A stretch of DNA of 64,000 nt, from positions 124,001-188,000 of the forward strand of contig NZ_CP033006.1 of NCBI RefSeq assembly GCF_005237295.1, given 5' to 3'. This document shows, in pieces, positions 1 to 2,613 of this stretch (position 1 is the first letter of the stretch; each line of letters begins with the position of its first letter). Origin of the DNA: Buchnera aphidicola (Macrosiphum euphorbiae). Its GTDB lineage: Bacteria > Pseudomonadota > Gammaproteobacteria > Enterobacterales > Enterobacteriaceae. Both the position numbers and the translations under genes were made by a program. Below the pieces are notes generated by a model. The model worked only from the letters and a program-made list of their open reading frames with translations. It searched no databases and was not told the origin of the DNA.

Positions 1-421
1 TTACATTAAAGATATCGGTTTATACAATACTAAAGCATTAAATATTATTCGTAGTTCTTTTTTAATATTAACTAAATACAATGGAATTATTCCAAATAAT
101 CGTATTGAATTAGAGTCTTTACCTGGTGTAGGAAGAAAAACATCTAACATTCTTTTAAATATACTGTTTAAAAAGAAAACTATTGCTGTAGATACACATG
201 TTTTTAGAGTATCGAATCGTACTAATTTTGCTAAAGGGAAAAATGTGAAAGAAGTTGAAATGAAATTAATTAAAGTAGTTCCTAACATTTTTAAATTAAA
301 CTTTCATGCATGGTTTGTTTTACATGGTCGGCATATTTGTACTGCTCGGAAAATTAAATGTAATATATGTTTAATATTTAAACAATGTGAATTTAATAAA
401 AAAAATTTTAATATATTTTGA
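1..421 (+). CDS. nth: Endonuclease III, C-terminal part (5' end outside window)
   Basis: DNA glycosylase/AP lyase that removes oxidised pyrimidines in base excision repair. The window begins inside the gene; reading from base 2, about 139 codons are open to a TGA at 419-421. Visible are the helix-hairpin-helix LPGVGRKTSN with the catalytic lysine, the catalytic aspartate in AVDTHVFRV, and a C-terminal 4Fe-4S loop with spacing C-x6-C-x2-C-x5-C (CTARKIKCNICLIFKQC). All catalytic and cluster residues expected in this part are intact, so the gene looks functional. The stop overlaps the priA start by one base (TGATG), suggesting translational coupling. Confidence 0.96.
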   Translation, partial: YIKDIGLYNTKALNIIRSSFLILTKYNGIIPNNRIELESLPGVGRKTSNILLNILFKKKTIAVDTHVFRVSNRTNFAKGKNVKEVEMKLIKVVPNIFKLNFHAWFVLHGRHICTARKIKCNICLIFKQCEFNKKNFNIF

Positions 422-2613
422 TGGATATATCAGTGATTATTGTAAAAGTTGTTTTACCTATTCCTATTAGACAATATTTTAAATATTTTGCACCTAATTG
501 TATGCGTCCTGTTATTGGAGGACGAATTTTAGTTCCTTTTAATTCTAAATATATAATAGGTGTCGTGGTTGCTATTTATAAAAAAAATGATATAAGTCAA
601 TTAAATTTGAAATATATTAAATCATTGATTGATACTAAATCACTTTATCCTAATATTATATTAGATCTTTTGGAATGGATAAGTAAAAATTATCATTGTC
701 CTATTGGAAATATATTTTTTTTTATTTTACCAAAGATTTTACATTCTAATTATATTATAAAAAATAAATATATTTCTGAGTGGAGTATAACAAAAAAGGG
801 TCGGGAATTAGATTTAAACCATTTAAAAAGAAAAAAAAAACAATTACATACTTTAATTTTTTTAAGGAAAAAAAGTGTTTTAAGTACTGAATTAAAAAAA
901 TACAACTTATCTAAAGCAATTTTAAAAAAATTAGAAATTCAAGAACTATGTAAAAATAATACTGATAATAAGATTTTTTTTAAAAAAAAAATATTAACAC
1001 TAAAAAAAGATTTTTTTTTAAATGTCAGAACATCGATTGTGCTTAATGATATTTTAATAAAAAAATGTTTTTCATCTTGGTTGTTAACTAAAATTAATTT
1101 ATATTCAAAAGTTAAATTTTATTTAGGTTTGATTAAGTCCGTATTATATAAAGGTATGCAAATTTTAATTTTAGTTCCTTACATTAAAAATATAAATATA
1201 ATTTTAGTATTTTTAAAAAAATATTTTAGCATCCCTATTGATATAATACATTCAAAATTAACTAGTACTAAATACTTTAAAAACTGGATCAGAACAAAAA
1301 ATGGTGAAAATTCTATTGTTATTGGTACAGGAAAAAGTATTTTTTTACCATTTTTAAGATTGGGTGTTATTATTTTTCTTGAAGAACACAATTTGAAATA
1401 TAAAAGCTTAAATGAATGTAGATATAATGTTAGAGATTTAGGCATTTTAAGAGCATATAAAGAAAATATACCGATAATTCTAGACTCAGAAACTCCTTCG
1501 TTAAAAACATTGTATAATATTTTATATAAAAAGTGTTCTTACATTAAATTATATTCATGTAATCATGTGAATAGATTGAATAATAATATTATTGATTTAA
1601 AAAAAGATAAAATAAAATTTGGTCTATCTTTGACTTTAATAAATGAAATTCATAAAAATTTTAAAAGAAAACAAGTCTTATTAATTTTTAATAAATTTAG
1701 TTTATTTTTTTATGTATTAAAATGTAATAAATGTAATTGGATATTTGAATGTAGTATTTGTCATGATTATTTAGAAATTAATCAATATCGCAATATATTA
1801 TCTTGTAAATTTTGTTTAATTCAAATCAAAAAACCAATTTTTTGTTTTAATTGTGGATTTCTTTCTCTAATTATAACAAGTATAGGAATAGAAAAAATTA
1901 AAGATAAAATACAAAATATTTTTCCAAATATTTCTTTGTTCTTTTTATTAAGTAAAAAAAACATAGATCAAAAAATATTAAATACGAAAATTTATGAGTT
2001 TTCTATTTTAAATCCTTATATCATTATTACAACTGAAGAAGTTGTTCAACAATATTATTTTCCGCATATACAATTAATTGTTTTGATTTGTATTGATAAT
2101 TATTTTTTATCTTTTAATTTTCGTGCTGTAGAATATTTTGCTCAGTTTTATATTAATTTAGTTCAATTAACTAGAAAAATAAAAAAATCATTTAAAATAT
2201 TTATACAAACATCATTTCCTAATGATTTAAATTTAAAAGAAATATGTAATAATGGATACTTTTCTTTTTCGAAGAAAATATTATCAATTCGAAAAAGTTT
2301 TTTATTACCTCCTTGGAGCTTTCAGAGTGTTATTTATTCAGAAAGTTTATACGCTGAACATAATATAGTTTTTTTAAGTTTAATTCGTAAAATCTTAGAA
2401 AAAAAATCTAATAAACATAATTTTTTTTTATGGTGTGTAGGTCCTTATAATACTTTTTTGCCAAAAAATAAGAAAAAATATTTTCATAAATTATTAATTC
2501 AATGTTCTTCACGTTCTTTTCTTAAAAGTATATTAAATGAATGTATTGATTTAATTAATATTTTTACTGTTTCTAAAAAGGTTAAATGGTTTATAGATAT
2601 TGAACCTAATTAG
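421..2613 (+). CDS. priA: PriA-like primosomal protein with degenerate helicase motifs
   Basis: PriA normally recognises stalled forks, unwinds DNA 3'-5' and loads the replicative helicase for replication restart. This 730-residue copy matches the E. coli length and aligns along its length. All eight zinc cysteines are present (about C435, C438, C444, C447, C462, C465, C475, C478), and the C-terminus KKVKWFIDIEPN is typical. The ATPase motifs are not: the Walker A stretch reads KINLYSKV where GVTGSGKT is expected (only the lysine near 230 remains), DEEH has become LEEH, GSATP has become DSETP, the motif V stretch reads TTEEVVQQYYFP, and GRAGR of motif VI is gone. It probably cannot hydrolyse ATP and may act only as a DNA-binding loader. 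I chose ATG 421, which overlaps the nth stop, over the in-frame TTG at 418. The gene contains in-frame A10 runs at 831-840 and 982-991. Confidence 0.93.
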   Translation: MDISVIIVKVVLPIPIRQYFKYFAPNCMRPVIGGRILVPFNSKYIIGVVVAIYKKNDISQLNLKYIKSLIDTKSLYPNIILDLLEWISKNYHCPIGNIFFFILPKILHSNYIIKNKYISEWSITKKGRELDLNHLKRKKKQLHTLIFLRKKSVLSTELKKYNLSKAILKKLEIQELCKNNTDNKIFFKKKILTLKKDFFLNVRTSIVLNDILIKKCFSSWLLTKINLYSKVKFYLGLIKSVLYKGMQILILVPYIKNINIILVFLKKYFSIPIDIIHSKLTSTKYFKNWIRTKNGENSIVIGTGKSIFLPFLRLGVIIFLEEHNLKYKSLNECRYNVRDLGILRAYKENIPIILDSETPSLKTLYNILYKKCSYIKLYSCNHVNRLNNNIIDLKKDKIKFGLSLTLINEIHKNFKRKQVLLIFNKFSLFFYVLKCNKCNWIFECSICHDYLEINQYRNILSCKFCLIQIKKPIFCFNCGFLSLIITSIGIEKIKDKIQNIFPNISLFFLLSKKNIDQKILNTKIYEFSILNPYIIITTEEVVQQYYFPHIQLIVLICIDNYFLSFNFRAVEYFAQFYINLVQLTRKIKKSFKIFIQTSFPNDLNLKEICNNGYFSFSKKILSIRKSFLLPPWSFQSVIYSESLYAEHNIVFLSLIRKILEKKSNKHNFFLWCVGPYNTFLPKNKKKYFHKLLIQCSSRSFLKSILNECIDLINIFTVSKKVKWFIDIEPN

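Follow-up and report, generated by a model that had tools for sequence, protein, structure and literature searches.

The closest described counterpart of the protein analyzed here is the PriA homolog of Deinococcus radiodurans, a pseudohelicase for which neither ATPase nor unwinding activity is reported, which binds ssDNA, forks, and DnaB, and whose genome has no clear PriB and no clear DnaT (PMC4504706). Thus, a helicase-free PriA is not new in kind. Here, we analyze the priA gene in a window of 64,000 nucleotides, positions 124001-188000 of the single 645,334-base contig of Buchnera aphidicola (Macrosiphum euphorbiae), together with the priA genes of the 36 genomes that the search tool placed in the window's genus, its own genome included (same-genus genomes). 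The window protein resembles D. radiodurans PriA in being a PriA homolog with degraded Walker A and Walker B motifs, in our case as judged from sequence alone. However, the two cases differ. The Walker A lysine is Arg in D. radiodurans PriA whereas it is kept in the window and in 34 of the 36 same-genus proteins, its surroundings being gone; D. radiodurans has no clear DnaT and its PriA binds DnaB, whereas the same-genus genomes keep DnaT and DnaC; and the window case, unlike that of D. radiodurans, is set in reduced symbiont genomes and has every examined motif hit. Actinobacterial PriA is not known to carry the helicase motifs. The window protein is unlike this group: it is full length, and NF004065 gives it 531.6 bits (the cut-off set for this model is 858), against at most 63.8 bits from the models of PRK14873, which we take to be the actinobacterial PriA group. 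The actinobacterial protein is described as a smaller, very divergent putative ortholog (PMC1193525).

In E. coli, the K230R and K230A (priA300) variants of PriA are ATPase-dead yet support primosome assembly, a role like the one proposed for the window protein. This analogy, on which an earlier note on this DNA had leaned, stands in that ATPase-dead PriA is viable; however, it is viable only with PriB, and neither PriB nor PriC was found in the 31 same-genus genomes searched. The combination of ATPase-dead PriA and a priB deletion is described as severely defective (PMC9713433). Because K230R viability needs PriB, and PriB was not found here, the scaffold cannot be the unchanged PriA-PriB scaffold of E. 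coli. The PriA domains, the zinc ligands, and the C-terminal domain of DnaT are shared with the E. coli PriA-PriB-DnaT preprimosome (8fak, 9zbt, and 9zbu), whereas in the same genus PriB is not found, the docking patch on the CRR is replaced, and the DnaT linker is shortened. What is new here is the setting, i.e., a helicase-dead PriA together with DnaT and DnaC in genomes in which PriB, PriC, and RecA were not found. The literature searched, i.e., titles, the openings of abstracts, and few subscription papers, contained no report of a helicase-free PriA in insect symbionts, and such a report quite possibly exists elsewhere; curated database entries for some PriA proteins probably carry a caution on missing helicase domains.

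In the window, priA spans 421..2613 or, likelier, 433..2613 on the + strand, which also carries the priA features given below, and the frame is open up to its stop codon at 2611-2613. The protein has 730 residues if counted from ATG 421, and 726 from GTG 433. The likelier start is GTG 433, because a sequence pattern places a GTG at this point in 33 of the 36 same-genus priA genes and because 18 of the 27 unsplit same-genus frames begin at this valine, directly after a stop codon. The nth stop codon and the candidate ATG overlap as TGATG at 419-423, which would suggest coupled translation if ATG 421 were the start. Residues 7-729 align with residues 3-729 of E. coli PriA (8fak chain H, 391.8 bits), so that the full-length alignment claimed in the earlier note is confirmed; its span of 1084-2190 takes in the former motor and the zinc region, but the gene itself extends to 2613. 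The protein also scores above the TIGR00595 cut-off (277.6 vs 230.35 bits). Three Pfam domains lie above their cut-offs, i.e., the 3' DNA-binding domain PriA_3primeBD (3'BD; residues 9-104, 445..732; PF17764, E 4.8e-25, 82 bits), the winged-helix domain PriA-like_WH (residues 120-177, 778..951; PF21213, 31 bits, cut-off 27), and the C-terminal domain PriA_C (residues 631-729, 2311..2607; PF18074, 41.1 bits, cut-off 26.9). Together with the full-length match, they place the protein in the PriA family by homology. Pfam DEAD gave no match in the window protein, and the one Helicase_C match, which falls in lobe 1, reached just 11 bits against a cut-off of 23.5. As a control, L035, a family member of full size whose motifs are intact, scored 79.2 bits with DEAD, 44.2 with Helicase_C, and 28.4 with Zn_ribbon_PriA. 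The window protein has no match to Zn_ribbon_PriA either, which is uninformative because L092, whose motifs are intact, likewise has none.

Loss of the helicase motifs was assessed by aligning 98 PriA sequences (rows), i.e., 36 from the same genus, 32 from other symbiont genera, and the 30 best-scoring family members. The 62 rows from outside the genus come from 147 other family genomes, as the 30 best scores plus 32 chosen from small genomes or low scores; the 49% complete genome G063, with priA in pieces, lies outside the motif comparison, and G136 is gapped at Walker A and motif V. In the window, the former Walker A motif (1090..1116) reads KINLYSKVK in place of GVTGSGKTE, with lysine 230 kept and the glycines and T231 lost; the former Walker B motif, motif II (1378..1392), reads LEEHN in place of DEEHD, with the Asp lost and EEH kept; the former motif III (1483..1497) reads DSETP in place of GSATP; the former motif V (2026..2052) reads ITTEEVVQQ in place of IGTQMLAKG; and the former motif VI (2155..2178) reads NLVQLTRK in place of QVAGRAGR, with both GRAGR arginine columns lost. 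These columns bear out the earlier note as to the loss of all five motifs. Its statement that only the Walker A lysine is left was too strong, since motif II still has EEH, motif III its S, T, and P, and motif V its T, and FRxxE persists as well. By contrast, each of the 30 best-scoring rows retains every one of the 19 residues scored across motifs I, II, III, V, and VI. The window protein does not match the SF2 ATPase signature (Walker A GxxGxGKT, Walker B DEEH, and motifs III, V, and VI); the residues for ATP binding and hydrolysis are gone, and the protein is thus predicted to be a pseudohelicase.

The loss is genus-wide. Across the 36 same-genus genomes, Walker A and motif VI are never found whole, and the aspartate of Walker B is never present; the same is true of three further residues, namely the first glycine of Walker A, the glycine of motif III, and the glutamine of motif VI. 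Same-genus relatives with intact Walker motifs, which the earlier note had named as evidence that would tell against it, were thus not found, and a sequencing error or a single odd genome is ruled out because the loss is common to the same-genus relatives. The motif residues that remain in the same genus are a non-random set: the Walker A lysine (34/36, with Arg in L031 and L068), the Walker B glutamate (33/36), the motif III threonine (35/36), and the motif V threonine (34/36). Persistence of lysine 230 and of the Walker B glutamate is what could be expected if PriA retained an ATPase operating through unusual motifs. However, the first two P-loop glycines are kept in 0/36 rows, the third glycine and T231 in 1/36 each, and the two motif VI arginines in 0/36 and 1/36, and the seven same-genus DnaC proteins aligned still have a standard P-loop; we consider a retained ATPase exceedingly improbable.

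The cysteine-rich zinc region (C435-C478, 1723..1854) presents a different picture. Its eight cysteines, at 435, 438, 444, 447, 462, 465, 475, and 478 when counted from ATG 421 (E. coli numbers are one higher), are present in 36/36 same-genus, 32/32 other symbiont, and 30/30 best-scoring rows, as the earlier note had noticed for the window with its near-E. coli numbering. Neither the splitting of the gene, as in nine same-genus copies, nor reduction of the genome to 258 kb, as in one family member, has removed them. Among the 27 unsplit same-genus rows, the invariant columns of the 53-column zinc region are exactly these eight cysteines, whereas none of the 11 columns scored among the 12 that hold the remaining cysteines of the window protein is invariant.

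Selection on priA was estimated by pairwise maximum-likelihood codon fits in 11 independent pairs from the 27 unsplit same-genus genes, the nine split genes being left out. Omega was 0.059-0.183 with a median of 0.098, vs dN/dS medians of 0.068 and 0.070 for the neighboring genes tyrS and nth, and omega = 1 was rejected in 11/11 pairs (2dlnL 76.6-225.7). The mean dN of each domain over the dS of the gene was 0.109 for the zinc region, 0.085 and 0.089 for lobes 1 and 2, 0.106 for the 3'BD, 0.123 for the winged helix (7 pairs), and 0.109 for the C-terminal domain, and is thus low throughout; dS exceeds 1 in 7/11 pairs, which makes the values from those pairs rough. Thus, the contrast expected from the earlier note, a zinc domain kept and lobes abandoned, is absent; that the zinc region is more constrained than the lobes is rejected at the domain level and holds for the eight cysteines alone. 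Moreover, the former motor lobes contribute 52 of the 87 invariant columns among the 27 unsplit rows, so the lobes too appear to be retained as a fold. The zinc-domain value is also far from the value near 1 by which the earlier note would have recognized a plain pseudogene. That interpretation is rejected given the omega range and the open frame of the window, though nine of the 36 relatives have a split gene. Altogether, the genus-wide loss of the motifs and the rejection of omega = 1 in every pair support the proposal of the earlier note that selection keeps a helicase-free protein.

Erosion may nevertheless be under way. If priA were slowly leaving these genomes, the remnant would represent drift in a gene that matters little. 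Set against 16 symbiont rows of similar overall divergence whose motifs are intact, relative divergence is higher in same-genus lobe 2 (1.03 vs 0.83), as expected from erosion, whereas lobe 1 (0.88 vs 0.83) and the zinc region (1.03 vs 1.00) are nearly alike and the 3'BD is slower (0.97 vs 1.15). In nine of 36 same-genus genomes priA is split; eight of these genes have one frame change each, with an A or T run of 9-12 bases in the frame overlap, which fits erosion as well, and the ninth, in G008, has three breaks. In addition, outside the genus, G053 carries a stop-ridden priA remnant beside an intact dnaT, and G129 carries fragments. On the other hand, priA has a match in 36/36 same-genus genomes, the cysteines persist in all nine split copies and in the 258 kb genome, and the low omega values and the rejection of omega = 1 argue directly against drift. 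We therefore regard slow erosion as unlikely, albeit deserving some weight.

The eight loci with a single frame change are L014, L016, L021, L023, L024, L025, L068, and L071, and seven of them shift in the same direction; runs of this kind number about four per priA gene. Transcription slippage at A/T runs has been measured in Buchnera, and the authors saw no frame restored by it (PMC5574713). Rescue of split priA by slippage is, for this reason, just a possibility. Nine same-genus loci (L027-L031 and L064-L067) have frames of 662-693 residues in which much of the winged helix is missing. Because priA is split in nine of 36 same-genus genomes and 17 of 149 family genomes are without a recognizable intact PriA, priA is not indispensable everywhere.

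Six families, DnaT, DnaC, PriB, PriC, RecA, and Rep, were searched in 80 genomes, including 31 of the 36 same-genus genomes; the five others are G012, G015, G028, G031, and G033, whose PriB status is assumed. DnaT is present in 31/31 same-genus genomes with DnaC adjoining dnaT in each, whereas PriB above the cut-off (weaker matches being SSB-sized), PriC, and RecA were each found in 0/31; measured against the E. coli PriA-PriB pathway, DnaT and DnaC are thus in place while priB is missing. The gap between rpsF and rpsR, which holds priB in G058, where it is 329 bases long, measures 71-127 bases in 7/7 same-genus loci. A Rep match of at least 895 bits occurs in 30/31 same-genus genomes, 19 of them above the curated cut-off, with none in G029.

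The surfaces that meet PriB in E. coli have changed as well. E. coli PriB is described as docking on the PriA zinc domain via Asp438, Ser481, Thr482, and His483 (PMC10175261); in the alignment, the window has K437 (1729..1731) in place of Asp438 and F480-L481-S482 (1858..1866) in place of Ser481-Thr482-His483. E. coli residue 438 is acidic in 12/12 PriB-positive symbiont genera vs 1/36 same-genus rows, 1/14 other degraded PriB-negative genera, and 1/6 other PriB-negative genera, among the latter G169. When the rpoB tree is restricted to its well supported branches, PriB and residue 438 give three independent pairs, nearly always concordant but too few for a firm test (median p 0.25). The acidic linker of E. 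coli DnaT is described as docking on PriB, probably via Asp66 and Asp70 (PMC13377028). This linker has 17-19 residues in 7/7 same-genus rows vs 31 in two PriB-positive rows, and in the seven rows no residue aligns to Asp66 or Asp70, the exact place of the deletion being alignment-dependent. Six other PriB-negative genera have linkers of 28-35 residues, with Asp66 lost in 6/6 and Asp70 kept in 2/6 (the DnaT found in G093 is outside this alignment); therefore, the short linker marks the genus and not PriB loss generally. By contrast, the C-terminal domain of DnaT, which in E. coli is described as docking on PriA and filamenting on ssDNA (PMC13377028), has 49-58 of 94 residues identical in the same genus. 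By these alignments, the PriB-facing parts of PriA and DnaT have decayed in the same genus.

We suggest, as the probable explanation, that the PriA pseudohelicase still starts replication restart by handing ssDNA directly to DnaT and DnaC. In this proposal, the motorless PriA would mark the fork, binding it with the 3'BD and with what were once the motor lobes. As in E. coli, the cysteine-rich domain, held together by zinc, would then swing so that a pore closes about the lagging strand, and the swing would uncover a site for DnaT that is formed by lobe 2 and the C-terminal domain. DnaT would dock there directly without PriB, filament on ssDNA, and recruit DnaC-DnaB. Forks with a duplex lagging strand would either need another helicase, for which Rep is a candidate, or not be rescued. 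For E. coli, the CRR is described as moving, forming a pore, and exposing a DnaT site on HD2 and the CTD (PMC13377028). Two E. coli results count against direct loading, i.e., that PriB stimulates ATPase-dead PriA in loading DnaB and that PriA without the PriB patch loaded no DnaB at any PriB level tried (PMC10175261). The position of E. coli Asp17 is replaced in 36/36 same-genus rows. In E. coli PriA, this residue presumably recognizes the leading-strand 3' end. An AlphaFold2 model from a three-row alignment was poor (pLDDT 49.1, pTM 0.36), and the top nine Foldseek matches to it were PriA structures with query TM-scores of just 0.24-0.34; for this reason, we draw no structural claim from it.

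PriA activity would be moot if an altered DnaC loaded DnaB without restart proteins, as the E. coli dnaC bypass alleles do. The idea has a precedent in that dnaC824 is reported to suppress priB-deleted priA300, a genotype like that of this genus (PMC11087952). However, at the DnaC residues compared, which are taken from the E. coli bypass alleles (PMC11087952), E176, I184, and N225 are unchanged in 7/7 same-genus and 9/9 other rows, and the Arg at position 178 of the seven same-genus rows is also found in the full-size G058; thus, none of E176G, K178N, I184F, and N225Y occurs in the seven same-genus DnaC proteins aligned. Other bypass changes may exist in the same genus, but overall this explanation is very improbable. 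Separately, Val replaces E. coli Ala84 in ten DnaC rows, the seven same-genus ones included (L157-L163, G125, G087, and G154), all from PriB-negative genomes, while Ala is kept in four other PriB-negative genomes; A84T in E. coli DnaC is described as mimicking a priB deletion (PMC11087952). Val84 is a lead and is no known bypass change.

Direct handover from PriA to DnaT, the reading that we favor, can be compared with the distribution of the two proteins outside the genus. Among 19 DnaC-bearing genomes of other genera (PF01695 > 50 bits; G058 and G173 included), 11 have both DnaT and PriA, two have DnaT without PriA, none has PriA without DnaT, and six have neither (Fisher p 0.001). Two of the 11 have a split priA (G065 and G158), and the two with DnaT but no recognizable PriA are G134 and G053, the latter with its PriA remnant at C1 105361-106083 (L156) and with dnaT and dnaC still in the genome. 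This co-retention of DnaT and PriA where DnaC is present is suggestive, because well supported tree branches yield one independent pair. Against it stand the many symbionts that have neither DnaC nor DnaT and yet retain a PriA, be it intact or degraded; Moranella is described as keeping priA without dnaT and dnaC (PMC3620526).

Degraded PriA without a DnaT match occurs in G040, G122, G136, G101, G082, G050, G150, and G098. A role with DnaT cannot explain why these eight genera retain PriA, and PriA may act there with a different loader or in a different role. They lend some weight to the notion that a function unrelated to DnaB loading keeps PriA in the genome, e.g., fork holding or shielding, SSB displacement, or other zinc-dependent binding, and the zinc ligands as the sole invariant part of the CRR would fit such a task as well. 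Against it, DnaT tracks PriA where DnaC is present and, to our knowledge, DnaT has no other job. We regard this alternative as quite unlikely.

As to the origins of the loss, parsimony on the rpoB tree needs four changes between intact and degraded PriA, and well supported branches force two for degraded vs all others; however, a single origin of helicase loss is not rejected by the AU test (p 0.141), and in this tree support is weak for 23 of the 49 inner branches and the branch leading to G136 is very long. G101 and G050 keep Walker A in part (GASGSGKTD and GVINSGKTE), whereas G169 has lost mainly motif VI, which argues that motor erosion is at different stages in different lines. Loss of RecA or PriB as the cause of helicase loss was rejected, as neither shows an association on the tree, although PriB loss and helicase loss are associated in the raw counts (Fisher p 0.00025). 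A contig-level search returned two remote relatives. G136 (258 kb; L079 and L154) has a PriA of 590 residues with the eight cysteines kept. Its rpoB has three TGA, all at conserved Trp columns, and no TGG, and its priA has three TGA, two at Trp columns, and no TGG; by this codon pattern, G136 reads TGA as tryptophan. In G150 (756 kb; L084, L126, L173, and L174), priA has two in-frame TGA, both at conserved Trp columns, as well as five TGG; TGG occurs four times in rpoB, from which TGA is absent. Reading through TGA lengthens the long frames of two 20 kb stretches of this genome; the in-frame TGA are either nonsense mutations or early recoding.

Taken as a whole, the data are compatible with a minimal machine of motorless PriA, DnaT, and DnaC that works without PriB, PriC, RecA, and ATPase, in which the PriA-DnaT contact is rewired to be direct and motor erosion is staged along several symbiont lines; we offer this broader scheme tentatively. 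By E. coli genetics, no restart route should function without the motor, PriB, and PriC, and yet PriA is under purifying selection here and DnaT and DnaC are retained. Because the ligands alone are fixed while the PriB face has decayed, the role of the cysteine-rich domain in the pore or switch would be the part that must stay. If our proposal is true, these symbionts stably live with a combination that is crippling in E. coli, and the two jobs of PriA, as motor and as loading platform, have parted in living lineages and not in engineered mutants, so that PriB-free loading of DnaT by PriA becomes a question that can be addressed with natural proteins.
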